Of a stretch of DNA of 64,000 bases, positions 6,750 to 24,902 are shown piece after piece. How positions within the stretch are numbered: the first letter of the stretch is position 1; each line of letters begins with the position of its first letter. The notes below the pieces were generated by a model, which worked only from the letters and a program-made list of their open reading frames with translations, did not search any database and was not told where the DNA came from. The stretch lies in the NCBI RefSeq assembly GCF_040537815.1, contig NZ_JBEWSZ010000008.1, positions 1 to 64,000 of the forward strand, read 5' to 3'. The position numbers and the translations under genes were made by a program. The stretch comes from Mesorhizobium shangrilense. Its GTDB lineage: Bacteria > Pseudomonadota > Alphaproteobacteria > Rhizobiales > Rhizobiaceae.

Positions 6750-6929
6750 CGGCCACTACCTTGCCGGGGAATGATAATAGGAGCGATGTGAATGTCGGTG
6801 GACTGTTAGTGCGGATTTGGCCTATATCACAGTGTCCCTAGGGTACGCTAGTTGCGGCGTGCATCTGCTGTTGTCTTTGTGACTGGAGGCAGGCATGGGA
6901 GGGTGCGGCTATTTCGAAAGGGCGTAAGC
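6750..6929. promoter_or_regulatory. Divergent promoter region between capsule operons
   Basis: This 180-bp gap separates the minus-strand secreted-protein operon from the plus-strand neuB operon, so it must hold or border promoters for both unless neuB is read from further away. It contains AT-rich patches (for example around 6765-6782) but no single motif I can name. A longer in-frame reading of neuB from 6852 would occupy part of it, and that start is judged less likely. Confidence 0.35.
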
Positions 6930-8021
6930 ATGAAAGTCATCGCCGAGATCGGCGTCAATCACGATGGCGACGTCAATATTGCGCTCAAAATGGTTGATGC
7001 ATGCAAGCGTCTCGGAGCTGACTACGCTAAATTTCAGATTTTTGATGCCGCCAAGCTGGTGACCGCCAGTGCGCGCCGCGCCACGTACCAAACACAAACC
7101 GTCGGCGCCGGTTCGCAGTTTGATATGCTAAAATCCCTGCAACTCAGCTACGACGACTTTCGCACCCTCAAGGCATATTGCGACGAAATCGGCATTGCAT
7201 TTCTAGCCACGCCTTTTGACGAGGATAGCGCCTGTTTCCTCATAGATGATCTCGGTTGCCGTACGATCAAGGTCGGCTCTGGCGATATGGACAATCTTCC
7301 GCTACTGCTGCTTGTCGCGTCGAAGGGTGTCGAGATGATTGTCTCCACCGGGATGGCGACCGTAGATGAAATCCGCCGATCGGTTGACGCAATCGCTTAT
7401 GGGCAGCTCTGCTACAGACGCGGCTCCGATCCCTTTGCGTCGGGTTTTCCCACCATTGACATGATCACGGAAGCGGGCAGGTCTTTGCAAGAAGATGGCA
7501 CGCTAGCGGCCTTTCTTACCCTCCTACATTGCACGAGTGAGTATCCCGCACATCACCCGACGCTGAATATGTCGGCAATCGTCTTACTTAGGGAAGTATT
7601 TCACCCCGTTTCAATCGGATTCTCGGACCACTCAACGGACGACGTTGCCGCAATAATGGCGACCACTCTCGGGGCAACTGTGATCGAGCGCCACATCACT
7701 TATGACAAATTGGCCGAAGGCCCCGATCACGGTGCATCGCTTGACGAACGGGAATTCGCGCGCATGATGGATCGTATCAAAGCTACTGCTAATGCGCTGG
7801 GGAGCGGGCAGAAGAATCCATCTGACAACGAATTGGCTCTGCGTGGCGTTGCGCGCAAACGTATCGTTGCAGCGCGCCCGATCAGGGCTGGTCAGATCCT
7901 TACGCACAAGGATATAGCGCTCAAACGCTCATCCGAGGGACGCCCGGCAGGGGATATCTTTGACGTCATTGGTCGTACCGCGACTGTCGACGTCAACATT
8001 GACGATGCAATCAGTACATAA
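6930..8021 (+). CDS. neuB: N-acylneuraminate/legionaminate synthase (NeuB/LegI family)
   Basis: 363 residues when started at ATG 6930 (MKVIAEIGVNHDGD), the canonical NeuB N-terminus. The in-frame start at 6852 adds 26 residues unlike the family. The enzyme condenses phosphoenolpyruvate with a 6-carbon N-acyl sugar to give a nonulosonic acid. Visible signatures include the NHDGD loop, HCTSEYP, GFSDHS and AEGPDHGAS of the TIM barrel. A C-terminal SAF (antifreeze-like) domain starts near residue 300 with VARKRIVAARPIRAG. It is followed after 8 bp by neuD. The legB and legC homologues in this window suggest that the product is legionaminic acid rather than sialic acid, which sequence alone cannot prove. 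Confidence 0.93.
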   Translation: MKVIAEIGVNHDGDVNIALKMVDACKRLGADYAKFQIFDAAKLVTASARRATYQTQTVGAGSQFDMLKSLQLSYDDFRTLKAYCDEIGIAFLATPFDEDSACFLIDDLGCRTIKVGSGDMDNLPLLLLVASKGVEMIVSTGMATVDEIRRSVDAIAYGQLCYRRGSDPFASGFPTIDMITEAGRSLQEDGTLAAFLTLLHCTSEYPAHHPTLNMSAIVLLREVFHPVSIGFSDHSTDDVAAIMATTLGATVIERHITYDKLAEGPDHGASLDEREFARMMDRIKATANALGSGQKNPSDNELALRGVARKRIVAARPIRAGQILTHKDIALKRSSEGRPAGDIFDVIGRTATVDVNIDDAIST

Positions 8022-8029
8022 GAAGTTAG

Positions 8030-8905
8030 ATGAGCGAGGCCAGCTATCACTTGGTATTCCTCGGGGCCGGGGGGCATGCGCGCGTCGTTAGCCGCATTTT
8101 AACGCGGGCTGCCATTCACTCTGAAGCATGGCGCAACGAGGCCGGTAGCCGACTATTGCCATACAGATATGAGGCTATTCATATAGTTGCCTCTCAGGGA
8201 GAAACGAAGGAGATCGTCGAAGTCCTGCTCGTTGCTTTTGGCAATACGCCGGACAGCGCGTCCAATATGGGCGGAAAGGGGGCCATGGTCCACCACCACG
8301 CAAGTGATGGCGCTTGCATATCGCATATTGCCGGCCTCCCTGGTCCAGTCAAAATGGTTCTCGTCAATGGTATCGGGCAGCGGGCAACAATAATGAACGA
8401 TGGCCTGAATCCGCGGCTCACGGCGGTGGATCAATACGAATCAATGCAGTTGGTCAAAGAGGGTTTGACGGTTCTCGAACCGCCGATAGTCGATCCTGCC
8501 GCCATGCTACTGGACGCCTATGAGGTTTCCATGGGTGCGCTCAAATCGCGTGGAACAGACGGTCAGATCGCGCATGGCGCACAGGTCCACATAGGCGCCA
8601 ACCTGAGCGCGCAAGTCTATGTGGGACCACGCGCGATCATCAATACCGGGGCCAACATTGACCATGACTGCCAAATATCCGCCGGAGCTTTCATTGGTCC
8701 TGGCGCGATCCTCTGTGGTGGGGTCGTCGTTGGTCAGGCTGCATTTGTAGGGGCGGGCGCTATTGTTCTGCCGGGCGTGAGGATTGGATGTGGCGCCTTG
8801 GTTCCGGGAGGAGCCGTTGTCGATCGTGACGTCAAGGACAATGCCGTAGCCGAATCACGTGACGATCGCCGGATGCGTGCCGAACTACGTCGCCAGGATA
8901 GTTAA
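8030..8905 (+). CDS. neuD: NeuD/LegH-like sugar O/N-acetyltransferase
   Basis: 291 residues. The N-terminus is a Rossmann-like start (LVFLGAGGHARVV) typical of the NeuD/PglD group. The C-terminal third is a left-handed beta-helix of hexapeptide repeats (for example GANIDHDCQISAG, GPGAILCGGVVVG, GAGAIVLPGVRIG), with the INTGANIDHDC segment carrying the presumed catalytic His. These enzymes transfer acetyl from acetyl-CoA to an amino or hydroxyl group of the sugar. In the legionaminate route this would be the 4-amino group left by LegC (the LegH step), and no other acetyltransferase is present in the locus. The middle region (residues ~85-170) is longer than in standard NeuD. It is followed directly by neuC. 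Confidence 0.85.
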   Translation: MSEASYHLVFLGAGGHARVVSRILTRAAIHSEAWRNEAGSRLLPYRYEAIHIVASQGETKEIVEVLLVAFGNTPDSASNMGGKGAMVHHHASDGACISHIAGLPGPVKMVLVNGIGQRATIMNDGLNPRLTAVDQYESMQLVKEGLTVLEPPIVDPAAMLLDAYEVSMGALKSRGTDGQIAHGAQVHIGANLSAQVYVGPRAIINTGANIDHDCQISAGAFIGPGAILCGGVVVGQAAFVGAGAIVLPGVRIGCGALVPGGAVVDRDVKDNAVAESRDDRRMRAELRRQDS

Positions 8906-8906
8906 A

Positions 8907-10157
8907 GTGCAGATTTCCTCAGCAACGCGCCGCATCGCAATCGTGACGACCACTAGGGCAGAGTGGCACTTGCTCGAGCCGGTCGTCAACGAATTCGCCA
9001 CGAGGTCAGGCCTGGAAACGTTCGTGCTCGCTGGTGGCACCCATCTTAAAAAGGCCTTTGGTATGACTGTTCGGGCCGTCGAAGCATCGAGTCTATGCCC
9101 GATCCACCAGGTCGACTTCATGCCGAATGAAAGTATCGCATTATCCGACCATACTGCCATGACGCGGGTCATCGGGCAGGCCGTCATCTCGTTTGCCGAC
9201 GCCTTTGAACGTTACAAGCCGGACGTGGTCCTTGTACTTGGTGACCGCTTCGAAATCCTGAGTGCAGCTCTAGCTGCTGTGTCAATGCGCATTCCTTTGG
9301 CCCACCTTGAGGGCGGTCACGTTACCGAAGGGGCCGTAGACGAGCGCTATCGGAATGCGATAAGTAAACTTGCTGACATTCATTTCCCGGCCCTTTCCGT
9401 GCAGGGTGAGCGTCTGCGCTCTATCGGCGAGGTGGAATCGCGAATCGTCACGACAGGGCCAATCGGTGCCTCGCTCGCGCGTCGCGCGGAACCGTTGGCT
9501 GCAGTCGACATGGAAACACTTACAGGGTTTAATCCTGAACATCGTGCAATCCTGATCGCCACCATCCACCCCGAGACAGCTTCCACAATGAAAGCTGACC
9601 AAATCGCAGATGTCACAAGAAGGGTTGTAGAGGCCGTTCTCGACTTAAAGCTGTCACACAAAGGACCTAAGCCTGCCATCTTGTTTACGCTCGCCAACCT
9701 CGACCCCGGCGGGGATATAATCAACAAGGAACTCTACGCCTTGATGAAAAGGTTTCCAGAGGATGTTCATGTTCTGCCGTCGATTGGACACCTCTATATT
9801 CAAGCGCTTATGGCGTCCGCTGGAGTTATGGGGAATTCCTCCTCTGGCATTTTAGAGGCCTGCGCCGTTGGCGTCCCGGTACTCAACATCGGTAGTCGCC
9901 AAGAAGGACGGGACCGCTACGGCCCCGTAACGGATGTTCCTTGGGATGTCGCGATGATTGTGCCTGAAATCGAGAGCTTGTTGATGGGATTCCAATCCAG
10001 GCACATCGGAGATGTTTATCAACCGCGGGGTGGGATCGAGGCAAGACCTGCGCGTTCCGACGCGCCAGACCCATGGGTGATCATCGCTGATCATGTGTCA
10101 GGTCTCGATCTGGCAACACTTCGTAGTAAGCCTTCAGCATCCCTAAACCGAAGCTAA
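8907..10157 (+). CDS. neuC: UDP/GDP-sugar hydrolysing 2-epimerase (NeuC/LegG family)
   Basis: 416 residues from GTG 8907, one base after the neuD stop, with a weak ribosome site (ccagga) upstream. A GTG at 8859 inside neuD is the alternative. The N-terminus RRIAIVTTTRAEWHLLEPVV matches the start of NeuC (TTRAEW). Other family segments are VLVLGDRFEILSAALAA, LAHLEGGHVTEGAVDERYRN and GVMGNSSSGILEACAVGVPV. The family hydrolyses a nucleotide sugar and epimerises C2, giving the NeuB substrate. With LegB/LegC upstream the substrate is expected to be nucleotide-linked 2,4-diacetamido-2,4,6-trideoxyglucose. Third gene of the plus-strand neu operon. Confidence 0.92.
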   Translation: MQISSATRRIAIVTTTRAEWHLLEPVVNEFATRSGLETFVLAGGTHLKKAFGMTVRAVEASSLCPIHQVDFMPNESIALSDHTAMTRVIGQAVISFADAFERYKPDVVLVLGDRFEILSAALAAVSMRIPLAHLEGGHVTEGAVDERYRNAISKLADIHFPALSVQGERLRSIGEVESRIVTTGPIGASLARRAEPLAAVDMETLTGFNPEHRAILIATIHPETASTMKADQIADVTRRVVEAVLDLKLSHKGPKPAILFTLANLDPGGDIINKELYALMKRFPEDVHVLPSIGHLYIQALMASAGVMGNSSSGILEACAVGVPVLNIGSRQEGRDRYGPVTDVPWDVAMIVPEIESLLMGFQSRHIGDVYQPRGGIEARPARSDAPDPWVIIADHVSGLDLATLRSKPSASLNRS

Positions 10158-10223: not shown

Positions 10224-11744
10224 TTGGAGATCAGATTGAGTGCTCATGCACGACGTGCTTTGTCAGTATCAAGCGCGGCGCTTGAACGGACGTCAGTCCT
10301 CTCCATGCTTCGATTACCGCAAATCAGCACCGTACCTGGAGATGGCCAACCCGTCCTTATCAACTCTTCCGAAATAGCCGACCGCCGACTGGGCGGCCGG
10401 ATGCCGGATTATGTAAGAGGCAAGCACCTCATGCTGAACGGGCGTTCGGAGGAACGTGTCTTTCGTATCGCTTATCAAGTCGCGGAGAAGCTATGCCGAC
10501 TTCTGCAGGTCAGCGGAACGGGGGTGCCGAAAGAGATTTGCGATCTGGCGTGTCGCCACGCCGCGGCGACCCGATTTCTCGTGATGAACGATCTTGTCGG
10601 GCTGCTGCGACCGCTTGTCGATGCGCTGGAAGTTTGCCGTGAAGGTGGTTATGAAGGGCCCTCCTTTCCTTTCCACGAGCGGCTCGCCGCGACAGCCGCA
10701 GAGGAGATCAAGGGATGGGACGAGGTGAACAATGGTCACCTATCCAATGCCTCGATGCACGGTGTGCATTTGGGATCAGCGCAATCCCATCTCGTAGATA
10801 CTTCGTCAATGCTGGGCCTGCCGGATGGCCTGCGCCCGGATATCGTTATCGAGCCGACGACCACTTTTCCTCAGTCATTTCGCCCGATTGGTCTCATTTC
10901 GGCTTTCCGTCTCTTACGGCAGGCAAGCGTGCCGCCGGCTCTATCTTTTCTATTGAGCCATGTCGTTCATCGCATCCTGAACGGCCGCCTTGAGCAATTG
11001 GCGGGAACCCCTCTGCAGCCTTGCGATCTTGCCGCCCACCCGATCGTCTATTGGACGAATATGTCATTGCGATCCGTATTCCATGCATCTAAGCGCCGGT
11101 TGTTAGGACTGCCTACAATCGCTGCACACACAATTTTAATGACGCAATCGGAGCGTTACATCTGCGATGTCTTCGATGCTATCCTTTCGGTCGGAACCGG
11201 ACAGCCGCTTGGAAATTCGCAGGCATTCCGCGGTAGAAGCGCCATTGAGCCGCGTATGCTGCAATCTTGCGGCCCTGTCATGCTAGCGCTTCAGCCCCAA
11301 CTGGATATTTTGCGGAATCTGTCGAGGTTCGGCCGCATAGCGGCTGAGGCTGGGCATAACGTCATCGTTCGCCCTCACCCCGCCCATAGACGCGCGCCCC
11401 AGGGACTAGTCGTTTGGAGAGAGATGGCTCCGCCTTGGGTCGAAGATTTCGATGTGACGCCGGGGACAGCAAGCCTTGTGGTGACTGGAACAAGCAATTT
11501 TGCGATCGAGGCTTGCCTCGCCGGCTGTCCAGTTGTGCTCGTTGCTTCGGACTTCGATCGTTACGCTATCTGGGGCAGGCATCCTGCTCCAGGGCTCCAT
11601 ATCGCGCCAGAACGACTCTTAGCACTTTCAACCCAGGATATCACTAATATCACTCTCTCCGCCTTCCAGGCGACACGATCATTTATCGATTACTATACAA
11701 AGCTTCCGGTATTCCATATTCCTGTTGCCTCCGAGGAAGCTTGA
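10224..11744 (+). CDS. GT-B-like protein, candidate nonulosonate transferase
   Basis: 506 residues from a TTG at 10224; later starts such as ATG 10302 are possible. No signal peptide. The C-terminal third holds a VRPHP segment (HP motif) followed ~45 residues on by VVTGTSNFAIEACLAGCPVV, the same HP plus Ser/Thr pair seen in polysialyltransferase-like GT-B enzymes and in the 913-aa protein at 2063-4804. This is motif-level resemblance, not an identified family. It ends the plus-strand operon 66 bp after neuC, directly behind the activated-sugar genes, which supports a role in transferring the CMP-sugar into the polymer. Confidence 0.6.
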   Translation: MEIRLSAHARRALSVSSAALERTSVLSMLRLPQISTVPGDGQPVLINSSEIADRRLGGRMPDYVRGKHLMLNGRSEERVFRIAYQVAEKLCRLLQVSGTGVPKEICDLACRHAAATRFLVMNDLVGLLRPLVDALEVCREGGYEGPSFPFHERLAATAAEEIKGWDEVNNGHLSNASMHGVHLGSAQSHLVDTSSMLGLPDGLRPDIVIEPTTTFPQSFRPIGLISAFRLLRQASVPPALSFLLSHVVHRILNGRLEQLAGTPLQPCDLAAHPIVYWTNMSLRSVFHASKRRLLGLPTIAAHTILMTQSERYICDVFDAILSVGTGQPLGNSQAFRGRSAIEPRMLQSCGPVMLALQPQLDILRNLSRFGRIAAEAGHNVIVRPHPAHRRAPQGLVVWREMAPPWVEDFDVTPGTASLVVTGTSNFAIEACLAGCPVVLVASDFDRYAIWGRHPAPGLHIAPERLLALSTQDITNITLSAFQATRSFIDYYTKLPVFHIPVASEEA

Positions 11745-11953: not shown

Positions 11954-12448
11954 CTATCCGCCGTACCGGCGCTCCAGCGCGTCGGCAATTCGCTCGCAAA
12001 GCAATTCCGAGGTCACGACTGTGAGGTGGAGACGGAGGCGAACTCCGTGTGTATCAACTAGGGTAGTGACAATACCGCGATCAGAGTACTCGGCGAGCTC
12101 GAGGACATCGTCGATGATGAAGTCTGGTATTTCTCGAAGCCTCTTAGAGCGCTCATCCACCGGGCTCTCCTCCCAAATTGGTGGCTTTCCGGGCAGGCCG
12201 AGTCTCATTCGCTGGAGTTCGGCGTAGCTCTCGGCAAGGTCTTGAGCGTTGAATAAATGCCGAGTTACGTTGCCATTTTCGACGACCTGAACAATCCATT
12301 GGCCGTCGACACTTTTCAATCGAACGTCATTCGGTTCTCCGATAACCATATCCGCGATCCGTTTCGACAATAAAGAACGAGTAATGACAGTGGAAGTCAA
12401 AGCCGGCGTATCCGTAGATGAACAACATTCGGCCAACATAATATTCAA
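11954..12448 (-). CDS. Hypothetical protein
   Basis: 164 residues, soluble and fairly acidic, of unknown family. It lies on the minus strand 97 bp beyond the end of the KpsT-like gene and converges with the 506-aa GT-like gene across ~209 bp that hold no other gene. The position makes it a possible last member of the ptmE-kpsM operon. Nothing in the sequence points to a function. Confidence 0.45.
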   Translation of the reverse strand: MNIMLAECCSSTDTPALTSTVITRSLLSKRIADMVIGEPNDVRLKSVDGQWIVQVVENGNVTRHLFNAQDLAESYAELQRMRLGLPGKPPIWEESPVDERSKRLREIPDFIIDDVLELAEYSDRGIVTTLVDTHGVRLRLHLTVVTSELLCERIADALERRYGG

Positions 12449-12545: not shown

Positions 12546-13274
12546 TCAAATCAAATCAACGTCTTCGTACACCAACTCCGGTTCATCCGCCGGTGCCTCT
12601 TCACCAACGCTAGGTAATTGAGACGCCATGATCTCGTTACTTATGAACAATTTGCCGTCTGTGATGTTAACAGCGAGGTTCGCAAACGCGCGCGCCACAT
12701 TGAACTGCCGTGAAGAAAACAAAATGAGACGCCCTGCAACGTGCTCCGACAGCAGTCCCCCGACATAGCGAAGGAATCGCTCAGGAAACGCCGGGTGGGC
12801 CAAAGCGCCATCGATGACAAGAATGTCAACATCGATAAACCTTGCCATGGCTATCGATAATGCAAGACGCTGATGAGCTTCAGCCTTGTCGAGCCTGGTT
12901 TCAAGTATGTTGGGCCATGGCAGGATACCGTGGAGTTCGCGCAATGCATGGCTCGCATCGAAACCATATATCTCCCCCATGAAATTCACGATTTCAGCCC
13001 CACGTACCGGGATCGCAAAGGGACTGGTCCTCCCCACGGGATAGGAGCAACGACCCTCTCTGCTAATGGATCCCAGCGCTGGGTCTCTGCGTCCAACGAT
13101 CAGATCGACCAGACACCGCCGATCGTTCTCCTCGCCTGTGAGAATATAGCGATCCGCGGCGATGTCGACGCTGGCACCCGATAATACTATTCTGCGGCGA
13201 GAAGATCGCCCTACCGGCGAAACCCGCTCAACAAGGTGGACATCCCTTAAGCTTATACGCCCTGCTGACCTCAT
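12546..13274 (-). CDS. KpsT-like ABC protein with all ATPase motifs lost
   Basis: 242 residues from ATG 13274, which overlaps the KpsM-like stop by 4 bp (ATGA). A longer reading from 13355 would run back into kpsM. The overall layout follows KpsT, the ATPase of capsule ABC-2 exporters, including the CSYPVG segment matching the family's SWPVG. Every catalytic motif is altered. The Walker A loop reads GEENDRRCL (residues 47-55) where GRNGAGKST is expected, so Lys becomes Arg and Ser-Thr becomes Cys-Leu. The signature is KAEAHQRLALS instead of a YSSGMRSRL-type motif. Walker B reads ILVIDGA, with Gly in place of the catalytic Glu, and the switch His is replaced in LFSSRQ. The frame is intact and translationally coupled, so this looks like a retained pseudo-ATPase rather than decay. 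A second, active ATPase would be needed. Confidence 0.75.
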   Translation of the reverse strand: MRSAGRISLRDVHLVERVSPVGRSSRRRIVLSGASVDIAADRYILTGEENDRRCLVDLIVGRRDPALGSISREGRCSYPVGRTSPFAIPVRGAEIVNFMGEIYGFDASHALRELHGILPWPNILETRLDKAEAHQRLALSIAMARFIDVDILVIDGALAHPAFPERFLRYVGGLLSEHVAGRLILFSSRQFNVARAFANLAVNITDGKLFISNEIMASQLPSVGEEAPADEPELVYEDVDLI

Positions 13275-14347
13275 GCGTATTCCCCGTGTCGTGCGCGGGC
13301 ACGGCGGTTCATCACGGCACAGCCAAATCCGATAGCCAGCGTAGCGCAAAGGCAAGAGAAGACGTAAACAAACGATGCGTCCGTGCTATCATACGTATAA
13401 AACCAGCCACTCCGCGCAAATTGCGATAGGTGCAGGATGGGGTTCCATAAGACATACGCCGCATACTCCCCGGGGACCTGTTCGCTCACAAAGAACAAAC
13501 CCGAGAATGTCGCTATGATTCGTAGAATCATTACGTAAATTTTTCTAAGCCCTGGATAATAAAGAGAAGCGTGGTATGCAATTAGACCGCTACCAAGCCC
13601 AAGGGCGGCAGTCGACGCGAGTGCTCCCGCAAACATCAGCGGATTTTCCGGCAAGCGGGTCACCCCGGCCGCCACGCACCCACCAAGCATGACAATCCCA
13701 ATGCAGCTATTGACTATCACACCTTTGACCGAAGTTCCCACGATCACATCGAATCGCGAAACGTCGGGGTGATCAATTAAATGTACCAACGCGCCTGGCC
13801 CGGCTAGTGCTGCTAAGAAGGTCGTACGGAAGGTAAGCCAGACAATGACCCCAATAACTGCGAATGGAAAGGCCGGCATGTCGAACACTTCTCCACCGTG
13901 CAAGAGAAGTGTAGCAAACGTGATCAGGATTACGTGCAGAAGGGGCTCAACAAGCCACCAGAACATACCGAGCCGGTCACTATTCATATCTGTATGGAAT
14001 CTTAACCCCCATAACGCAGACCAAACTGCCAATGCAGGCGCGCGGCGGGGCGGACGCGGCACATCCACTGCCCCGACAATTCCACTGATCGATTGTATCA
14101 GGATTGCGTCCGCGCGTGGACTGCCGACACTAGTACGGACCTTGCGAGCCTGTGACTCGGCAATTTTCTTTCTGCGTCCCGATTCAAAAACAAGGACCTC
14201 GATCTCACGCCGGAGACGCTCGACAGGTCCAGTCGCCTGCTCCACATATCTGTTATATATCTCGATCCGCGCAGATGCTTCGGCCTCTCCAGCCATGGAG
14301 AGCGCCGATACATCCATGACGGCAGGCTCCTGTGGTTCCCGACTCAT
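13271..14347 (-). CDS. kpsM: KpsM-like capsule ABC-2 permease with N-terminal extension
   Basis: 358 residues. The C-terminal ~250 residues form a six-helix ABC-2 permease like KpsM: WWLVEPLLHVILITFATLLL, FPFAVIGVIVWLTF, then further hydrophobic helices to residue ~345, with the WNPILHLSQFARSGWF segment typical of the family. KpsM is usually ~260 residues; the extra ~95 N-terminal residues are polar and helical (VERLRREIEVLVFESGRRKK) and may form a coiled coil. It would form the inner-membrane channel for a Kdo-linked polysaccharide. It overlaps the TPR gene and the KpsT-like gene by ATGA at either end. Confidence 0.85.
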   Translation of the reverse strand: MSREPQEPAVMDVSALSMAGEAEASARIEIYNRYVEQATGPVERLRREIEVLVFESGRRKKIAESQARKVRTSVGSPRADAILIQSISGIVGAVDVPRPPRRAPALAVWSALWGLRFHTDMNSDRLGMFWWLVEPLLHVILITFATLLLHGGEVFDMPAFPFAVIGVIVWLTFRTTFLAALAGPGALVHLIDHPDVSRFDVIVGTSVKGVIVNSCIGIVMLGGCVAAGVTRLPENPLMFAGALASTAALGLGSGLIAYHASLYYPGLRKIYVMILRIIATFSGLFFVSEQVPGEYAAYVLWNPILHLSQFARSGWFYTYDSTDASFVYVFSCLCATLAIGFGCAVMNRRARARHGEYA

Positions 14348-15771
14348 CGGTTCCTGACATTATTCGCGGATATGCTCTTCGGGCGCTGCGCAGGAGTGAG
14401 CCTTGCACCAGCATATTGTATGATACGCATCATGGCTAAATCTTGTGGGTTGTTCTTGAGAACGGTCATTGCCCGGTGAAGCGCCTGACCATATTCCCCG
14501 CGCTCATGGTGTAGTTTTGCCTTGACCCCATTAGCTATCGAGTTTTCAGGCTCGATCAGCAACAGATTCTCAGCGATAGCCTCTGCCCGCCCGTAGTCCT
14601 TCGTGCGGAGAAAAAACCGCATAGCGGCGCCACTCACCTCAACGTCAGCGACATTGGCGATACTGTCCCACAAGGCCTCAACCTGGGAAACTACCCCGGC
14701 TCTTATGGCCTTCTGGAGGCTTCGATTAAGCTGTGTAATGGCAGCGGAACGCAGCTTAACCGCAACAACGTCGCCTTCATTTTGCGCTAGCACAAGATCC
14801 GCGAAGGCGATAACAGCCGCGTAATTCCCAGCAGTGGACGCTGCTTTGAGACCTATTCTGCTCGCGCGATGTACGAGCACCGCATTTTTATCTGTTTTAC
14901 TACCATCGAGCCGACGCAGATCGTCCACTTGCTCCTCTAGTGAGCGCGACGCAGACGAGGCAACGACGAATTGCGCCGAGATCCTAGGTTGTGTCAGATC
15001 GGCATTGGGAAGCCGCGCCAGCGAAACATAAGCCGAAGCAAGGTCGCCCATGTCAAGGCATGCCGCCGCGTGCAATCGCAAGGCCTCGGCATTTCGTGGG
15101 TCTTCATCGAGTACCTTCGCCGCGGCCTTCCTCAGTTCGCTTCCCGAAAGTTTACGGGCGGCAACGAGCTCTTTCTCGAACAGACGGGCGAGACCGCTCC
15201 GGGCGGACGCATCGTCGGGAGCGATGTCGAGAATACAATGGCAAAGAAGAGCCCTGTGAGCACGACTTTCATCATTCCCACCAGCGGTATTGCGCAACAT
15301 AGAGTGGCAACGGCGGACGGTTGGGGCAACAAAATCAGCAGCAAGAATTCCTTCTCGTAGGATCATATCACGCAACACGAATACAGCGTCAGCTCTTAGA
15401 AGAAGACCGACCACCGATGCTAATGTAGCTTGATCGAGAAGGCCAGCTTGCTTGGCCACCGTGCCAAGGATATCAATGTTTTTGCGCGAAATGCCAATAC
15501 GGGCAAGTGCCGCAAGGGCGGGCTTGTCCTTGGGTCGCTCAGAAAGGATATCCATATAAATTTTTATCGCGGATTCATGATCGCCTATACGGGTTATGGT
15601 CTGCGCCGAAATCATGCGAAAATCCCCACGTCCTGAGCTCGCTTCGCGTCGGCCAACACTGACTGACGCGTCGGATACAGCGAGCTTGGGTGTATCGAGG
15701 CGAGCCGGTGTCCGACGGCTCCGCGGCTGTTTCTGCCTCTGTGGCTGGTCCTTACCTACTTCATTTGACAT
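14344..15771 (-). CDS. TPR-repeat protein in capsule operon
   Basis: 475 residues when started at ATG 15771 (MSNEVGKDQ), which has a gaagg ribosome site; an upstream in-frame start at 15816 lacks one. The first ~60 residues are basic and Ser/Arg-rich. The rest consists of helical pairs with TPR-like spacing, clearest at GDHESAIKIYMDILSERPKD and in the last ~90 residues (YGRAEAIAENLLLIEPEN, YGQALHRAMTVLKNNPQD). No signal peptide is seen. TPR proteins scaffold complexes, and this one is translationally coupled to the KpsM-like permease and may organise the export or polymerisation complex. The function is inferred only. Confidence 0.65.
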   Translation of the reverse strand: MSNEVGKDQPQRQKQPRSRRTPARLDTPKLAVSDASVSVGRREASSGRGDFRMISAQTITRIGDHESAIKIYMDILSERPKDKPALAALARIGISRKNIDILGTVAKQAGLLDQATLASVVGLLLRADAVFVLRDMILREGILAADFVAPTVRRCHSMLRNTAGGNDESRAHRALLCHCILDIAPDDASARSGLARLFEKELVAARKLSGSELRKAAAKVLDEDPRNAEALRLHAAACLDMGDLASAYVSLARLPNADLTQPRISAQFVVASSASRSLEEQVDDLRRLDGSKTDKNAVLVHRASRIGLKAASTAGNYAAVIAFADLVLAQNEGDVVAVKLRSAAITQLNRSLQKAIRAGVVSQVEALWDSIANVADVEVSGAAMRFFLRTKDYGRAEAIAENLLLIEPENSIANGVKAKLHHERGEYGQALHRAMTVLKNNPQDLAMMRIIQYAGARLTPAQRPKSISANNVRNR

Positions 15772-15853
15772 GGAATAGCCTTCTATCTGGGATTTTAGGG
15801 CAGTTCTGCATTGCATGTGAGACTAGTCTAGACTTTGCCGACAGCGTTGCCCC

Positions 15854-16468
15854 CTAAGGAGGGTTTTCTTCCTGTGTGGTTCCGGGATACAGCGAAGTTA
15901 GATGTCTTGAGGCTATCTGGGTGAGGCCCTCGATACGTTCCGATGAGAGGCTGTCAAATCCGACCTTTCGCCATTGTCCCGCCATCTCGCAAAGCAATTG
16001 CGTTAGTTCTGATGTGTCGGGGATATGCTGAGCCACGAACAGAACGGCGTCGAACAACTCGCCGTCGACTCTTTTGCTTGAGAGGAGCGGTAACGTCGTT
16101 ACGAGAAGGTCGAATGTGCTAGGGATAGACTCCCCCTGAGCGATGGTTGACGCAACCTGCGTGCGCAATCCTTGAGCAAGCGCCCTTGAGAGGTCGACTG
16201 CCACTTCGTTGGTTGGCGACAATTGGATGGCAATCGCAATGAGTTCGACGAGACGCTGTTCGTCTAGCGGCCCACGAAGGGCCGCGGCGATCATTCGCGA
16301 CAATCGGCTAACCAGAGTAACTTCAGTTGCCGTCGGCACACGGTCTCGATCCAGGGAGCCTAGCAACCTGGCAGCCATTCCGAGGTCGCCCTTGCGCATG
16401 GACGTCGTGACCTTCGTCAGGACCTCCGATACCAGGGCATCCCTCTGTTTTGGCTCTGCATCTTTCAT
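15854..16468 (-). CDS. Hypothetical helical protein in capsule operon
   Basis: 204 residues, almost entirely predicted helix, with no membrane segment and no recognisable family. The start ATG at 16468 overlaps the neuA stop by 4 bp (ATGA), and the TPR gene starts 82 bp downstream. The amphipathic helices (VAVDLSRALAQGLRTQVAS and similar) resemble those of the neighbouring TPR protein, so it may be a degenerate TPR-like or partner protein. No function can be assigned. Confidence 0.55.
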   Translation of the reverse strand: MKDAEPKQRDALVSEVLTKVTTSMRKGDLGMAARLLGSLDRDRVPTATEVTLVSRLSRMIAAALRGPLDEQRLVELIAIAIQLSPTNEVAVDLSRALAQGLRTQVASTIAQGESIPSTFDLLVTTLPLLSSKRVDGELFDAVLFVAQHIPDTSELTQLLCEMAGQWRKVGFDSLSSERIEGLTQIASRHLTSLYPGTTQEENPP

Positions 16469-17241
16469 TCAGTTGGAGCCACGTTATCGATCGCCCCGGC
16501 TAAGGCAATTTTCTCAGCTGCGTCCCAATCCTCTATCGTGTCAATGTCAATAGCCTCAGATGCGGGGACAAGTGTGCCGGCGCAACGGGACAGTATAAAA
16601 GCCCCGCGTTCGACGAAGGCATTCCGTTCCACCGAGTAAGCCGCTCCTGTGATCACATGCGTCGGATTATCGAAATCGTCAGCCCTCTTCATACTCACGA
16701 TATTGAATTGACCTTCAGGATTTTTGGTCGGGATGGTTAGGCCTGTCGCGATCTCGGTGATACGCCGCATGCCGTTTGATTTCAGTGTGGGCGTCCATCC
16801 AGTTGAAGGGTCACGTTCACCAATGGCGCAAGCTGTAATGGCGGAGCCGGCAAAGCCACAAGACACCGATCTGATCACACTCGCGACTGATGCAACGGAT
16901 GCAAGCGGCGAAGTGGGTTGTAGAAGACTGACAATGTCCATTCGTCCAAACCGCATTTCGGCATTCAAAAGTGCATGAACCGCGGCATCGAACGATGTGG
17001 CGGATGACGTGGCCAGGTGCATAGGGCGCTCGATCGCCTCAATACCTTCGGGCGCGAGGTAGATGACTTCGGGATCATCGGTTGAGACCACGACATGATC
17101 GAGATGGCCCAGGTTGATTAGAGCGAGCGCGCGTTCGTAGGTCCAAGTTATCATTGGTTTGCCCGCGAACTCGCGAGTATTCTTGCCTGGAAGACGGACA
17201 GAGCCGGCCCGCGCAAGTATGATGCCGATGCGTCCGGTCAA
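16465..17241 (-). CDS. neuA: CMP-nonulosonate cytidylyltransferase (NeuA/LegF family)
   Basis: 258 residues. The nucleotide-binding N-terminus GIILARAGSVRLPGKN corresponds to the family motif (A-R-x-G-S-x-x-x-P-x-K-N). Further signatures are VVVSTDDPEV, SLLQPTSPLAS and the C-terminal AIDIDTIEDWDAAE. The enzyme activates a nonulosonic acid with CTP to CMP-sugar, the donor for capsule glycosyltransferases. It overlaps legC by 4 bp upstream and the 204-aa gene downstream. The length fits CMP-legionaminate/CMP-sialate synthetases without the extra C-terminal domain. Confidence 0.93.
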   Translation of the reverse strand: MTGRIGIILARAGSVRLPGKNTREFAGKPMITWTYERALALINLGHLDHVVVSTDDPEVIYLAPEGIEAIERPMHLATSSATSFDAAVHALLNAEMRFGRMDIVSLLQPTSPLASVASVASVIRSVSCGFAGSAITACAIGERDPSTGWTPTLKSNGMRRITEIATGLTIPTKNPEGQFNIVSMKRADDFDNPTHVITGAAYSVERNAFVERGAFILSRCAGTLVPASEAIDIDTIEDWDAAEKIALAGAIDNVAPTE

Positions 17242-18437
17242 GCGATTGCCGCCAGTCGCGTCAACAGAATATCATTGGCACCTTCGGTTTTGGCTAGAGC
17301 GTAGGCCAAAACGGCATGCACTTCATCGATCTGTCGATCGGTTATATTGGTCGAACACGGGAGAGGTAGAACCCTTCGCCATAGGGCGTCCGCCACGGGG
17401 TAAAGATCATCGGTGGAGAGACCTGCCTGCTTCAACGAGCTGAGAAGCGGAGCATAGGCCTCTTGGAGGTGCATCGGTTTCCAAAAGAGTCGAACGCCAA
17501 TACCACGGGAGTTGAGCACGGAAACGACATCGCGAATATCTGTTTCAGGCCGTAAGACTACACCGGAAAACCAATCGCCGCGCTCCGCCAAGCGGTGTCG
17601 TGGAAATACGTCCAGATCGTGCTTGTGCGCAAAAAGATCGTGCCGCGCCCGTATTCTCGCCTTGGCTGCGATGAAACTATCTAGGCGTGCGATCTGCGAA
17701 CGCCCGAGAGCCGCTTCGATATTGGTCATCCGCTCGTTGAAAGCGGGCCTATCATGATCATAATTGACTCCCAACCGCCCAGTCGACGCCAAGCTTCTTG
17801 CTGCTGCGATGAAACCGTCGTCACCCACGATGGCCCCGCCGCCGCCCGTGGTCATGGTCTTGTTGCCATTAAAGGAAAACGTCGTTGCGTCGGCGAGCCC
17901 TCCGACTGGGCGCCCATCAAAGGTCGAACCGATTGCCGCGGCCGCATCGGCAACAATCCGGATCCCATGGCGTTCAGCGAACACCTTGACATCGGTCATG
18001 TCGATCGGGTTTCCCATTGGGTACACAACTATGATTGCCCTCGGTTTGGGCAGGCCAACCGCAACCAGTCGGCTGACCATCTGTTCCGCGTGATTAATGT
18101 CAATTGCCCAAGTTGCCAGGTCGATGTCCACGAAGATCGGGTCAGCCCCCGCTGAGTGGATCGCGTTGGCGGTAGCAACGAAAGTGTATGTCGGACATAG
18201 CACCAGATCGCCGCGGCCGATCCCTAAGGCCCTCAACGCGATCATGAGAGCGGCAGTCCCAGAGGCAACCGCTACGGCAGAGGAGGTGCCGCTAGCAGCG
18301 GCAACAGCTTGCTCGAATGCAGGAACATCGGGGCCAACGGAAGACACCCAACCATCGGTCATTGCGGTATGGACAGATGCGATGTCCTCGGGACCAATAT
18401 TAGGTACGGCGAGCGGGATAGTGGAGACGGTTTGCAT
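17238..18437 (-). CDS. legC: LegC-like sugar aminotransferase (DegT/DnrJ/EryC1)
   Basis: 399-residue PLP enzyme of the DegT/DnrJ/EryC1 family. The PLP lysine is K193 in FSFNGNKTMT, followed by GGGGAI, and Asp164 in VADAAAAIG is placed to contact the pyridine nitrogen. The N-terminal segment DGWVSSVGPDVPAFE matches the LegC subgroup. It transfers an amino group to C4 of the 4-keto-6-deoxy nucleotide sugar made by LegB. It starts 2 bp after legB and overlaps neuA by ATGA. Confidence 0.92.
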   Translation of the reverse strand: MQTVSTIPLAVPNIGPEDIASVHTAMTDGWVSSVGPDVPAFEQAVAAASGTSSAVAVASGTAALMIALRALGIGRGDLVLCPTYTFVATANAIHSAGADPIFVDIDLATWAIDINHAEQMVSRLVAVGLPKPRAIIVVYPMGNPIDMTDVKVFAERHGIRIVADAAAAIGSTFDGRPVGGLADATTFSFNGNKTMTTGGGGAIVGDDGFIAAARSLASTGRLGVNYDHDRPAFNERMTNIEAALGRSQIARLDSFIAAKARIRARHDLFAHKHDLDVFPRHRLAERGDWFSGVVLRPETDIRDVVSVLNSRGIGVRLFWKPMHLQEAYAPLLSSLKQAGLSTDDLYPVADALWRRVLPLPCSTNITDRQIDEVHAVLAYALAKTEGANDILLTRLAAIA

Positions 18438-18439
18438 CG

Positions 18440-19468
18440 TTAGACTTCGTAGCGGCCAGGGTTGTAAAGAGCGAGATTAGCGGGATCGCGGAACCAGGCG
18501 ATCGTTTCTTCCAAACCGCGCTCAAAGCCGTCAAGACCACCGTAGATCGGCCTCCAACCTGCCCTGGTAAGCGCAAGACCATTGTCGCCCCAGAGGCGCT
18601 CGACCTCGCTTGCTTCTGGACGCAGGCGGGCCGCGTCAATCTCGATCGTAATCTCTACACCCATCTTGTGGGCGATCAGTTTCACCGCTTCACCGACCGA
18701 GATCTCATAATTTGATGCGAGATTGGTCACATGCCCAATCGATTTCGCCGATTTGGCGAGTGCTATGAAGCCAGAAACTGTATCCTTTACATAATTGAAG
18801 TCCCGCGTCGGCCGCGTATCCCCGAGCTTGATCGATGTGATCCCAGCAGCAATTTGCGTGATAATCGTCGGCAAGACGGCTCGAGCCGATTGTCTAGGGC
18901 CGTATGTGTTAAACGGGCGAACCACCGAAACTGGAGTGTCGAAGCTCTTGTGGTAGGATAGCGCTATCATATCTGCCCCAATTTTAGAGGCTGAATACGG
19001 ACTTTGCGCCTGCAGCGGATGGTCCTCCGTTATCGGAACGGCACGTGCGGTGCCGTAAACCTCACTAGTCGATGTGACTATACAACGTTCGACAGAATTA
19101 GACCGCGCCGCTTCAACAACGTTGGCGGTCCCACCAACATTAGTCTCCAAGTAGGCCTGTGGAGCTACATATGAATAGGGTATAGCGATCAACGCGGCGA
19201 GGTGGAAGACCACGTCGATGTCCTTCGTGATCGTGTTCACAAAGAATGGGTCGCGGATGTCGCCCGGACGGTAATCAATCGCCTCGCGGATGTCACGAGC
19301 AGCATGGTCGAGCCATCCTTTCGTACCAAGTGAATTGTAGATTGTGAGGGCCCGGACATTTGCGCCTTGGCGAACAAGCTCCTCGGTGAGATGCGAACCG
19401 ATGAATCCGTCCGCGCCAGTCACCAGAACTCTTTTGCCTGAAATTGTTAAAATGTCGTCTATCCGCAT
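18440..19468 (-). CDS. legB: LegB-like NAD-dependent nucleotide-sugar 4,6-dehydratase
   Basis: 342-residue extended short-chain dehydrogenase. The Rossmann motif GADGFIG lies at residues 18-24. Catalytic Tyr158 and Lys162 are in SPYSASKIGAD, with TSTSEVYG at ~132-139. The segments FHLAALIAIPYSY and RPFNTYGPRQSARAV are hallmarks of LegB rather than of the inverting PseB. It converts GDP- or UDP-GlcNAc to the 4-keto-6-deoxy sugar, the first committed step to legionaminic acid. It overlaps ptmE by 10 bp. Confidence 0.92.
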   Translation of the reverse strand: MRIDDILTISGKRVLVTGADGFIGSHLTEELVRQGANVRALTIYNSLGTKGWLDHAARDIREAIDYRPGDIRDPFFVNTITKDIDVVFHLAALIAIPYSYVAPQAYLETNVGGTANVVEAARSNSVERCIVTSTSEVYGTARAVPITEDHPLQAQSPYSASKIGADMIALSYHKSFDTPVSVVRPFNTYGPRQSARAVLPTIITQIAAGITSIKLGDTRPTRDFNYVKDTVSGFIALAKSAKSIGHVTNLASNYEISVGEAVKLIAHKMGVEITIEIDAARLRPEASEVERLWGDNGLALTRAGWRPIYGGLDGFERGLEETIAWFRDPANLALYNPGRYEV

Positions 19469-20568
19469 AGTACAGCAGCCTTAGTCTCCTTGAGTACCAT
19501 GACCTTGGCGCTCTCAATGGATAGCTCGTGACGGTGGTGGCCGGCCTCGACTTTAATTCGAGCGCGCTCGAGATCTGGCAGCGTTCCGACGTCAATCCAG
19601 TCCTCGATCAACGGAAACGCGCCGACTCGAAACCCGAGTGGAATTAGAGTTTCGATCAGAGACGGCATATCGACTTTACCCGCTGGGACGTGCTCCAGGA
19701 CCGACGGTGACAAGACATAGATCGCGACGTTGATCTGGTGGATGATTTTTGGCTTCTCGCGAATGCGGGAGATAAGCCCGTCGACCTGATCGATGACGCC
19801 AAATTGCATCTGGATAGGAAAGGGACGGACGCTAACGGTGATGTCATAACCTGCCGCGTTGTGGAACTCGACAAGGCGGCCGAACTGCGCAGTGGTTATG
19901 ACATCGCCGTTGACAACGAGGAGGGGGTGTTTGATCTCGCGAGGTAGCAGCGAAAGGCAGCCCGCCGTACCAAATGGCGTGGTTTCCTTGAGATAGCGAA
20001 CGCGAGCACCGAACGAAGATCCATCGCCAAAATGGTTCGTTACCACATCCCCTTCGAAGAAGAGTGACACGAAAATATCGCTGATGCCATTGTCTACCAA
20101 ATTGTCGAGCAAATGCTCGGCGATGGGCTTGCCGCCAACATCCAGCATTGGCTTAGGTGTGGTCTTTGTCAAATCGCCGAGCCTGCGTCCGAAGCCGCCT
20201 GCCATTATTAGTCCGTGCGCGTCGAGCCTCGTGGGGCTCGGCATGCGAATCTCTGTGTGTACAATACGATGCCCAGGCTCGTCATATTTCGCCTCAATGT
20301 GTGGGAAGCGGCTTTTAAGAGCCACGCGCGCAGGCGTTCGGCACTTGCGCTCTATCTCGTCATAAGAAGATAGCAAAAGCTCGATGCAGGTTTGGTCGTC
20401 AATGCCTAGCGCGAGCAGACGGCGCCACTCATGATGGTGGATTTCGGCCTGCAGACATTGCTCTTCGTCGACGACGAACATGTTCTCGAAAGTCGTCTCG
20501 GCGAAAAACGCAGTTACGCTCGAAGCCTTCTGATCAGCCCGTACAACACCAAGCATAAGCTCCCCCAT
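19459..20568 (-). CDS. ptmE: PtmE-like sugar-1-phosphate nucleotidyltransferase
   Basis: 369 residues. The C-terminal ~245 residues are a nucleotidyltransferase with LIMAGGFGRRLGDLTKTTPK (residues 120-139, with the G-G-x-G-x-R-L and PKP signature) and VNGDVIT carrying the metal-binding Asp. The ~115 residues in front include FVVDEEQCL, a CBS-like strand pattern. PtmE of Campylobacter has N-terminal CBS domains, but this region is shorter than a full CBS pair. PtmE makes GDP-GlcN from GlcN-1-phosphate at the start of the legionaminate route. This is the first gene of the eight-gene minus-strand operon, and its promoter must lie in the AT-rich stretch above 20568. Confidence 0.85.
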   Translation of the reverse strand: MGELMLGVVRADQKASSVTAFFAETTFENMFVVDEEQCLQAEIHHHEWRRLLALGIDDQTCIELLLSSYDEIERKCRTPARVALKSRFPHIEAKYDEPGHRIVHTEIRMPSPTRLDAHGLIMAGGFGRRLGDLTKTTPKPMLDVGGKPIAEHLLDNLVDNGISDIFVSLFFEGDVVTNHFGDGSSFGARVRYLKETTPFGTAGCLSLLPREIKHPLLVVNGDVITTAQFGRLVEFHNAAGYDITVSVRPFPIQMQFGVIDQVDGLISRIREKPKIIHQINVAIYVLSPSVLEHVPAGKVDMPSLIETLIPLGFRVGAFPLIEDWIDVGTLPDLERARIKVEAGHHRHELSIESAKVMVLKETKAAVLCG

Positions 20569-22958: not shown

Positions 22959-24782
22959 CTATTCCACCGTCACCGATTTCGCCAGATTGCGCGGCTGGTC
23001 GACATCGGTGCCCATGAAGTCGGCAGTGAAATAGGCGAGCATCTGGATCGGTAGCGCATAGATGATCGGCGAGATGATTTCCGGCACGTCCGGCAGTACG
23101 ATCGTCTCCATCGTCTTGACGCTCGTAAGTGCCGCACCCTTGCTGTCGGTGATCAGGATGATCTTGCCGCCGCGCGCCGCCACTTCCTGCATGTTCGACA
23201 CGGTCTTTTCGAAGATGCGATCATGCGGCGCGATGACGATGACAGGCATGTTCTCGTCGATCAGGGCGATCGGCCCATGCTTCAGCTCGCCCGCGGCATA
23301 GCCCTCGGCGTGGATATAGGAGATTTCCTTGAGTTTGAGCGCCCCCTCCATGGCCAGAGGGAAATTGGTGTCGCGGCCGAGATAAAGCACGTTCTTGTAA
23401 TGGGCGAGGTCGCGCGCGATCTTTTCGATCTGATGGTCGAGCTTCAGCACCTGGTTGGCATAGCGCGGCGCTTCCGACAGCTCGCGCACAAATGTCTTTT
23501 CCTGCTCGCGTGAAATCGTGCCGCGCGCCACGCCGGCGCGCACGGCAAGCGATGCCAGCACCGAAAGCTGGCATGTGAAGGCCTTGGTCGAGGCAACGCC
23601 GATCTCCGGGCCGGCGAGCGTCGGCAGCACCACGTCGGATTCGCGCGCCATGGTCGATTCGCGGACATTGACGACCGCGCCGATCTTCATCCCGGCCTTG
23701 CGGCAGTAGCGCAGTGAGGCCAGCGTGTCAGCGGTCTCGCCCGATTGGGAGATGAAGAAGGCGGCATCGTTCGCAGACAGCGGCATTTCGCGGTAGCGGA
23801 ACTCCGAGGCGACATCGATGTCGACCGGCAGCCGGGCGTAGCGCTCGAACCAGTATTTGCCGATCAGGCCGGCGAGATATGCGGTGCCGCAGGCCGAAAT
23901 CGCCAGCCGGTCGATCTTGGCGAAATCAAACGGCAGGTCGAGCGGCTTGGACACGCCACCGACGAAGTCGATATAATTCGCCAGCGTGTGCGAGATCACC
24001 TCGGGCTGTTCATGGATTTCCTTCTCCATGAAATGGCGCCGGTTGCCCTTGTCGACCATGAAGCTGGTCGACAGCGACTGCTGCCGCTTGCGCTCGACTT
24101 GTCTGCCGTCTATGTCGAAGATGGCGACGCCGCCACGGCGCACCACCGCCCAGTCGCCGTCTTCCAGATAGGTGATCGAATTGGTGAATGGCGCCAGCGC
24201 AATGGCGTCGGAACCCAAAAACATCTCGCCATCGCCGTGGCCGACGGCCAGAGGCGGGCCATTGCGGGCGCCGACGATGAGATCCTCGTCGCCCTTGAAC
24301 ATAATCGCCAGCGCAAAGGCGCCTTGCAGCCGCTTCAGCGCCTGATGCGCGGCCTCGACCGGCTTCAGCCCCTTGGCCAGTTCGCGCGCCACCAAATGGG
24401 CGACGACCTCGGTATCGGTCTGCGAAGAAAATTCGTAGCCATCACGCTTCAGTTCGTCGCGCAATTCAGCAAAGTTCTCGATGATGCCGTTGTGGACGAT
24501 GGCGACGCCGTCGGAAAAATGCGGATGGGCATTGGTCTCGTTGGGCACGCCATGCGTTGCCCAGCGCGTGTGGCCGATGCCGATCGTGCCGTCGAGCGGA
24601 TCGTCCTTGAGCCGGCGCTCGAGGTTGATCAGCTTGCCTTCGGCACGGCGGCGGGCAAGCTGACCATGCTCGATGGTGGCGACACCGGCCGAGTCATAGC
24701 CGCGATATTCGAGCCGCTTCAGCGCGTCGACGATGAGCGGTGCAACCTGCGAGTGGCCGACGATTCCAACGATACCGCACAT
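22959..24782 (-). CDS. glmS: Glutamine-fructose-6-phosphate aminotransferase
   Basis: 607 residues from ATG 24782 (MCGIVGIVGH). Cys2 becomes the N-terminal nucleophile of the glutaminase domain after Met removal; an in-frame start five codons upstream would block it. The glutaminase domain (residues 1-~220) carries GHTRWATHG and HNGIIENF. Two SIS domains follow, with SACGTAYLAG, FISQSGETADT, EISYIHAEGYAAGELKHGP and a C-terminal DQPRNLAKSVTVE. It makes glucosamine-6-phosphate, the precursor of GlcNAc for the cell and of the legionaminate route, where Campylobacter uses the paralogue PtmF. Codon use is visibly more GC-rich than in kpsC next door, suggesting a separate origin, possibly a copy of a housekeeping glmS. 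It lies 120 bp beyond kpsC. Confidence 0.95.
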   Translation of the reverse strand: MCGIVGIVGHSQVAPLIVDALKRLEYRGYDSAGVATIEHGQLARRRAEGKLINLERRLKDDPLDGTIGIGHTRWATHGVPNETNAHPHFSDGVAIVHNGIIENFAELRDELKRDGYEFSSQTDTEVVAHLVARELAKGLKPVEAAHQALKRLQGAFALAIMFKGDEDLIVGARNGPPLAVGHGDGEMFLGSDAIALAPFTNSITYLEDGDWAVVRRGGVAIFDIDGRQVERKRQQSLSTSFMVDKGNRRHFMEKEIHEQPEVISHTLANYIDFVGGVSKPLDLPFDFAKIDRLAISACGTAYLAGLIGKYWFERYARLPVDIDVASEFRYREMPLSANDAAFFISQSGETADTLASLRYCRKAGMKIGAVVNVRESTMARESDVVLPTLAGPEIGVASTKAFTCQLSVLASLAVRAGVARGTISREQEKTFVRELSEAPRYANQVLKLDHQIEKIARDLAHYKNVLYLGRDTNFPLAMEGALKLKEISYIHAEGYAAGELKHGPIALIDENMPVIVIAPHDRIFEKTVSNMQEVAARGGKIILITDSKGAALTSVKTMETIVLPDVPEIISPIIYALPIQMLAYFTADFMGTDVDQPRNLAKSVTVE

Positions 24783-24902
24783 GCAGACAGCCCCCAATTC
24801 CCCATGGAAAACCAGCGAAAAGATTCGCCGACGATATAAAATAGAATCCGCATATTAGATACTTAAGTTAGCTTCGACCTCAACAATATCGCTTGAATAC
24901 TT

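Follow-up and report, generated by a model that had tools for sequence, protein, structure and literature searches.

ATP hydrolysis by KpsT is the accepted motor of the capsule export pathway. What, then, is the role of a capsule gene whose product has the shape of KpsT and none of its catalytic motifs? The question is raised by a gene in a 64,000-nucleotide stretch of the Mesorhizobium shangrilense genome (contig NZ_JBEWSZ010000008.1), which we refer to in its entirety as the window. The genome measures 8.35 Mb and looks like that of a nitrogen-fixing plant symbiont. A preliminary description of the window had read the gene as a retained pseudo-ATPase, and we call its product pseudo-KpsT.

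Pseudo-KpsT Keeps the KpsT Fold and Lacks the Catalytic Motifs

The gene for pseudo-KpsT lies at 12546..13274 on the minus strand and is an intact frame of 242 codons. Its start overlaps, as ATGA, the stop of the gene for a KpsM-like permease (13271..14347, minus strand; NCBIfam KpsM, E = 1.3e-15, under the cut-off; 8tsh_C, E = 2e-28) that carries an N-terminal extension of about 90 residues. Pseudo-KpsT has the fold of an ABC nucleotide-binding domain (NBD), with KpsT as its nearest relative. In a profile comparison with solved NBDs the best match was 8tsh_A (1.7e-22), followed by TarH (1.3e-12). Residues 217–242 form a disordered acidic tail. Pfam and NCBIfam gave no match to the protein (P0001) at E ≤ 1, and the gene is therefore missed by profile-based annotation with these collections; for a family member from Caballeronia, the sole NCBIfam match was TagH, below the cut-off (E = 1.1e-5). 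Among named copies the closest, at 98.8% identity, comes from Mesorhizobium sp. AR07, a strain isolated from Oxytropis nodules, and sits on its plasmid pMspAR07b; the annotation there begins at a later start and calls the product a short hypothetical protein.

Motifs were counted in 24 family members (24 distinct cores, some of them near-copies) and 52 distinct canonical KpsT rows (59 with repeats); a separate column table set 16 thinned members against the 59 canonical rows. Where a Walker A motif (GxxGxGKS/T) would stand, pseudo-KpsT reads TGEENDRRC, and none of the member frames scanned contained the motif. The ABC signature SSGM is missing too, its Gly being present in 0/24 members versus 52/52 canonical proteins. 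The catalytic Glu after Walker B, which is Gly156 in the window copy, shows the same split (0/24 versus 52/52), and the switch His, replaced by Arg in the window copy, is found in no member and in 51 of the 52 canonical sequences. The motif readings of the preliminary description were thus right, as were the KpsT shape, the intact frame and the coupling to an extended permease that it reported. In KpsT of Schlegelella thermodepolymerans, E151Q alone abolishes secretion (PMC11041684).

Traces of the nucleotide site persist. The P-loop Lys position is basic in all 24 members (Lys in six, Arg or His in the rest, versus Lys in 52/52 canonical proteins), and the Walker B position is acidic in all 24 (Asp in 15 and Glu in nine, versus Asp in 52/52), so some nucleotide binding may survive. 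The family also has conserved residues of its own. Arg82, in the SWPxG loop, occurs in 24/24 members and 0/52 canonical proteins, Tyr43 in 24/24 versus 13/52, Arg63 in 23/24 versus 0/52, and Asp57 in 22/24 versus 0/52. An acidic C-terminal tail with a hydrophobic end was present in 20 of the 24 members and none of the 52 canonical proteins, by a rule defined after the tails had been inspected; P0005 and three other members lack the full pattern. A pseudo-NBD that binds a nucleotide or phosphate ligand (a CMP-sugar, for example) through its altered site, and serves as a nucleotide sensor or slow switch, would fit the basic and acidic positions and the invariant Arg82. However, neither the P-loop glycines nor the signature, Glu and His remain, and we regard such a switch as improbable.

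Pseudo-KpsT Lies in a Capsule Locus

The permease gene is ATGA-coupled to a gene upstream of it that encodes a TPR protein (14344..15816, minus strand; TPR_19, E = 2.8e-15). The same gene run includes a 204-aa protein with no significant family match (15854..16468). Further minus-strand genes encode an acylneuraminate-type CMP-sugar cytidylyltransferase (16465..17241; PF02348, E = 7.6e-17, and so annotated in AR07), a DegT/DnrJ/EryC1-type aminotransferase (17238..18437; PF01041, E = 2.1e-85), an NAD-dependent 4,6-dehydratase annotated as LegB in AR07 (18440..19468), a sugar-phosphate nucleotidyltransferase (19459..20568; PF00483, E = 7.3e-32), a GlmS-type glucosamine-6-phosphate synthase (22959..24797), a KpsC-type protein with Capsule_synth domains (24903..27035; PF05159, E = 7.4e-49) and an outer-membrane polysaccharide export protein (OPX) resembling KpsD and VexA (27042..28241; Poly_export, E = 7.7e-16). 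On the plus strand are genes for a NeuB-type nonulosonate synthase (6852..8021; PF03102, E = 8.7e-74), a hexapeptide acyltransferase whose position suggests a NeuD-like protein (8030..8905), a UDP-GlcNAc 2-epimerase annotated as NeuC in AR07 (8859..10157) and a 506-aa protein (10224..11744) that has no family match and, by its position, is possibly a glycosyltransferase. A weak likeness to glycosyltransferases marks a 913-aa protein (2063..4804, minus strand), and an IS66 transposase gene (330–1859) lies near the start of the window. The sugar genes point to a CMP-nonulosonic acid, probably of the legionaminic type given the LegB annotation in AR07.

The assembly splits the capsule locus, with genes for KpsE (TIGR01010, E = 4.2e-75, below the curated cut-off) and KpsS (PF05159, E = 6.3e-39) on contig C16 of the same genome; AR07 has it whole. 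With seven proteins of the M. shangrilense genome as tblastn queries (five from the window, two from C16), we found OPX, KpsC, pseudo-KpsT, the 913-aa protein, KpsS and KpsE within about 28 kb of pMspAR07b at 97.8–99.7% identity, and the seventh, a 164-aa protein, at 100%. The KpsM-type permease, KpsE-type PCP, OPX, KpsC and KpsS of a group 2/3 system were all found. Because the permease, KpsC, OPX, KpsE and KpsS stand together in one 28-kb stretch of AR07, the locus is, as far as genes alone can tell, a complete ABC-transporter-dependent capsule locus of the group 2/3 type.

The gene for the 164-aa protein lies downstream of pseudo-KpsT (11954..12448, minus strand). Its product is 85% identical over 131 residues to one encoded near another pseudo-KpsT locus (L131:2854-3237, genome G099), and the pseudo-KpsTs of the two loci are 23% identical. 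This likeness may come from recent exchange between the two loci, or the gene may be mobile. Three pseudo-KpsT loci (L020:18018-20351, L129 and L131) share a 777-aa protein that has no Pfam family.

The locus resembles the K-antigen locus of Sinorhizobium meliloti, which likewise belongs to a rhizobial plasmid with genes for a permease, an NBD, RkpR (so named in its annotation), an acylneuraminate cytidylyltransferase, a NeuB-family protein and NeuC. We take that locus to be rkp-3 and its NBD to be RkpS. Unlike pseudo-KpsT, the S. meliloti-type NBDs of Rm41 and strain R14 (L169 and L170) have all motifs intact.

A Rare Family of Single Origin

Pseudo-KpsT is one member of a rare, retained family known in Mesorhizobium, elsewhere in the same order, in Caballeronia and in one further genome of the phylum. 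Members were found in 7 of 146 genomes of the genus, the best matches in the other 27 matching genomes having E = 5.9e-15 or worse and being mostly long Wzt-type frames. The order survey (397 genomes) returned the M. shangrilense copy and seven others, the class survey (385 genomes) that copy only, and the phylum survey (398 genomes) that copy and one in G1170; three Caballeronia plasmids also carry members. These counts are lower bounds, because each genome contributed a limited number of scored candidates (19 at genus level; 7 at order, class and phylum level) and most weaker matches were left unfetched. Apart from a few semi-degenerate KpsTs, the remaining sequences fetched in the order, class and phylum surveys, a set that leaves out most of the weaker matches and for the phylum covers only part of the non-member matches, were canonical. 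At E ≤ 1e-32, 11 of the 384 other genomes in the class sample matched, and all 13 loci fetched from these 11 keep the P-loop GKS/T or a close form, the signature and the Glu, with L148 as an exception for the His. Sinorhizobium and Rhizobium matches at 24–27% were considered as members, and the four inspected (L169–L172) were all canonical. Protein homologue searches returned four proteins with P0001 as query and ten with a profile of eight. AR07 was the sole match when genome contigs were searched for related loci, and no title or abstract in the open-licence full-text literature described a degenerate KpsT family or this Mesorhizobium locus.

An extended KpsM-like permease adjoins pseudo-KpsT in 18 of 20 records or genomes, among which the same strain may count twice: the window, AR07, the three Caballeronia plasmids, AR02, 131-2-5, G031, G074, G081, G160, G099, G172, G340, G264, G292, G279 and G1170. 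The permease of G231 lies about 9 kb away on the opposite strand, and the two G401 contigs showed no recognisable permease. Caballeronia, AR02, 131-2-5, G031, G081, G099, the g56 carriers (G264, G292 and G340), G231 and one G401 contig have a KpsE-type gene next to pseudo-KpsT or close by; none was recognised near pseudo-KpsT in G172, G279 or on the other G401 contig.

In an IQ-TREE analysis of 54 rows, the 20 pseudo-KpsT rows fell on one branch with support of 100/99, and the same branch was recovered with the same support when the five motif blocks were left out. The family is, on this tree, of single origin. The branch leading to it is long (1.65), which leaves its exact point of attachment among the KpsTs uncertain.

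Three semi-degenerate KpsTs (L008 in G046, L101 on C16 of G172 and L114 on C12 of G231) sit outside the pseudo-KpsT clade on long branches. Like pseudo-KpsT, they are of the KpsT lineage and have lost the signature and switch His; unlike it, they have the P-loop GKS/T and lack Arg82, and two of the three have the Walker B Glu. The permeases of L101 and L114 keep the canyon residue Arg35, unlike the pseudo-linked permeases described below. The semi-degenerate proteins may represent independent steps toward pseudo-ATPases.

Purifying Selection on the Pseudo-KpsTs of Three Other Clades

The loss of all catalytic motifs could be read as ordinary gene decay, and the window and AR07 copies, which differ by three nonsynonymous and no synonymous changes, would agree with that. 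The rest of the family does not. Its 24 intact frames span deep divergence and form a single clade with conserved residues of its own. Nei–Gojobori estimates of dN/dS (computed with a script; pairs with dN < 0.35 reported in the main run) were 0.063–0.106 for Mesorhizobium clade B (six pairs), 0.139–0.208 for Caballeronia (three pairs), 0.097–0.103 for g56 (three pairs, true starts) and 0.166–0.189 for G1170 against Caballeronia (three pairs, dS > 1). In clade A, pseudo-KpsTs are 85–86% identical and permeases 84–85%, so pseudo-KpsTs diverge no faster than their permeases. Purifying selection thus acts on the pseudo-KpsTs of three other clades (dN/dS 0.06–0.21); the clade of the window, in which AR07 is the sole DNA relative, falls outside this measurement. 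At the level of the family, simple decay is refuted by the intact frames, the low dN/dS and the clade-specific residues, and for pseudo-KpsT we consider it extremely unlikely. No homologue with intact motifs was seen at the same kind of locus, and the proposal of a retained pseudo-ATPase is well supported.

No Second NBD in the Locus and No General KpsT Partner in Trans

An ATP motor could still be supplied by a second NBD. The preliminary description had suggested that pseudo-KpsT is the regulatory half of a heterodimer, or that the permease pairs with an ATPase encoded elsewhere. In heterodimeric exporters such as TM287/288, BmrCD and TmrAB, one of the sites is degenerate, nucleotide binding is kept and the partner NBD is intact. 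Pseudo-KpsT resembles them in the loss of catalytic residues from one NBD, but its locus has no second, intact NBD, and the first suggestion finds no support there. Across 19 stretches with pseudo-KpsT loci or parts of them (1,002 frames of at least 120 aa), the NBD-like frames were 18 pseudo-KpsTs and a single truncated frame at the L126 edge, and none of these 19 had the P-loop pattern GxxxxGKS/T. Two further frames, in L038 and L131, match that pattern and have no NBD likeness. The window itself has three ABC-like frames with intact P-loops at 41–62 kb, outside the locus.

For partners in trans, we searched 15 genomes (14 carriers and G046) with a canonical KpsT query at E ≤ 1e-20, scoring 150 of several hundred candidates in most of them. 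Canonical KpsT was found in 3 of the 14 carriers, namely the g56 carriers (E = 5.6e-66 or better), and semi-degenerate KpsT in two others (G172 and G231). Among the best candidates scored at this threshold, none of the seven Mesorhizobium carriers had a canonical KpsT; they had Wzt-type NBDs only, and any partner encoded elsewhere would therefore need to be a Wzt-type or unrelated protein. Eleven of the 14 carriers, including M. shangrilense itself (C1:2483848, 33% identity), have Wzt-type NBDs whose motifs are intact. In the three carriers without one, the search yielded just the semi-degenerate KpsT in G172, just the pseudo copy in G279 (a 100% complete genome) and no match at E ≤ 1e-20 in G401 (89% complete). 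A heterodimer of pseudo-KpsT with a semi-degenerate KpsT was also considered, and just G172 and G231 carry both.

The suggestion of an ATPase from elsewhere may therefore apply to Wzt-type proteins; canonical KpsT as the partner finds no support in the seven Mesorhizobium carriers at the threshold used. That the permease pairs with an intact NBD from elsewhere (a canonical KpsT, a Wzt-type protein or another ABC ATPase), with pseudo-KpsT as a silent half, would draw on the Wzt-type NBDs in most carriers and the canonical or semi-degenerate KpsTs in five. Against this, 9 of the 14 carriers lack a KpsT-lineage partner (E ≤ 1e-20; best 150 candidates in most genomes), the Wzt of M. shangrilense adjoins a permease of its own, and pseudo-KpsT has lost the signature that the ATP site of a partner would need. 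We consider this arrangement unlikely. Together, the scans of carrier genomes and locus frames indicate that pseudo-KpsT is not generally the silent half of a heterodimer, nor is a KpsT generally supplied from elsewhere.

The Permease Has Diverged Together with Pseudo-KpsT

Permease positions are numbered by 8tsh_C, shifted by 3. At the canyon positions Arg35, Trp45, Arg89 and Arg94, the window permease has Asp, Trp, Arg and Ala and so lacks the full StKpsM-type set. Among the listed rows, which include near-copies, all 16 from pseudo-linked or clade A permeases have Asp, Ile, Met or Ala at the Arg35 position, whereas Arg stands there in 17 of the 19 from canonical- or semi-linked permeases (two of these 19 being repeats). 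The same 16 rows all retain Trp45 and Arg89. At position 94, Arg remains in clade B, Caballeronia, G099, G172, G231 and g56 but gives way to Ala in the window clade and to Val in G279. The permeases thus appear to have co-diverged with pseudo-KpsT, being extended and lacking an Arg that is essential in the solved KpsM. In the StKpsM experiments described in PMC11041684, changing Arg35, Arg89 or Arg94 to Lys or Ala disrupted export in each case. Vi-type loci use another lipid (PMC12220298), so the Arg change may merely reflect a different substrate.

The absence of Arg35 from all 16 rows and the Ala at position 94 in the window clade would suit a permease–pseudo-KpsT pair that translocates nothing and serves in the membrane as a scaffold on which KpsE, OPX and the biosynthetic enzymes assemble, while the polymer takes another route. 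But Trp45 and Arg89 are retained throughout, and no obvious second polysaccharide exporter turned up in the scanned stretches. Besides the permease, frames with at least six predicted transmembrane segments occur only in the window (a 551-aa protein with eight, 30419–32074), L126, L129 and L130, and one of those in L129 is a glycosyltransferase. We doubt strongly that the pair is such a scaffold.

Proposed Role of Pseudo-KpsT

By its sequence, pseudo-KpsT is a KpsT-derived pseudo-ATPase, and we think it reasonably probable that it acts as a structural, adaptor-type pseudo-NBD that holds the export complex without hydrolysing ATP. Since the SWPxG loop and the NBD core are kept, we infer that it keeps the NBD shape and docks on the permease, and the docked domain would hold the complex of extended permease, KpsE and OPX in shape. 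The conserved new residues and the acidic C-terminal tail would make it an adaptor, possibly for the adjoining TPR protein. With an NBD of its own that presumably does not hydrolyse ATP, export would have to be driven otherwise, either by growth of the chain through cytoplasmic glycosyltransferases or by an ATPase in trans.

More tentatively, and with rather less confidence than in the adaptor role, we suggest that the permease and pseudo-NBD pass or anchor the polymer without ATP hydrolysis by the NBD, driven by chain elongation, and that the acidic tail docks on a TPR protein encoded in the locus. Binding of acidic C-termini is a known property of some TPR clamps. By Pfam, TPR proteins are encoded at the window, Caballeronia, AR02 and G231 loci and, with a weak match, in G099, and two g56 loci have a homologue of the Caballeronia protein. 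No TPR protein was found among the tested ORFs of G172, G279 and G401, or in ten ORFs from canonical or semi-degenerate loci. The Caballeronia TPR protein (L022:11809-13818) is encoded after KpsE and has homologues in g56 and G099 loci (L123, L125 and L131); its C-terminal part reads like an acyltransferase and may resemble VexE.

Compared with the solved KpsT of S. thermodepolymerans (PDB 8tsh/8tsi) and with group 2/3 KpsTs, pseudo-KpsT lacks the P-loop glycines, signature, catalytic Glu and switch His and has an extra acidic tail, and its permease is extended and lacks Arg35. Since the loci are otherwise complete, this family with its dead motor allows tests of which roles an NBD has beyond hydrolysis, and of whether polysaccharide synthesis can drive export. 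As the same dead motor is kept in other bacteria, the coat may be exported without an ATP motor of its own, and an ABC transporter would in that case have evolved away from its dependence on ATP.
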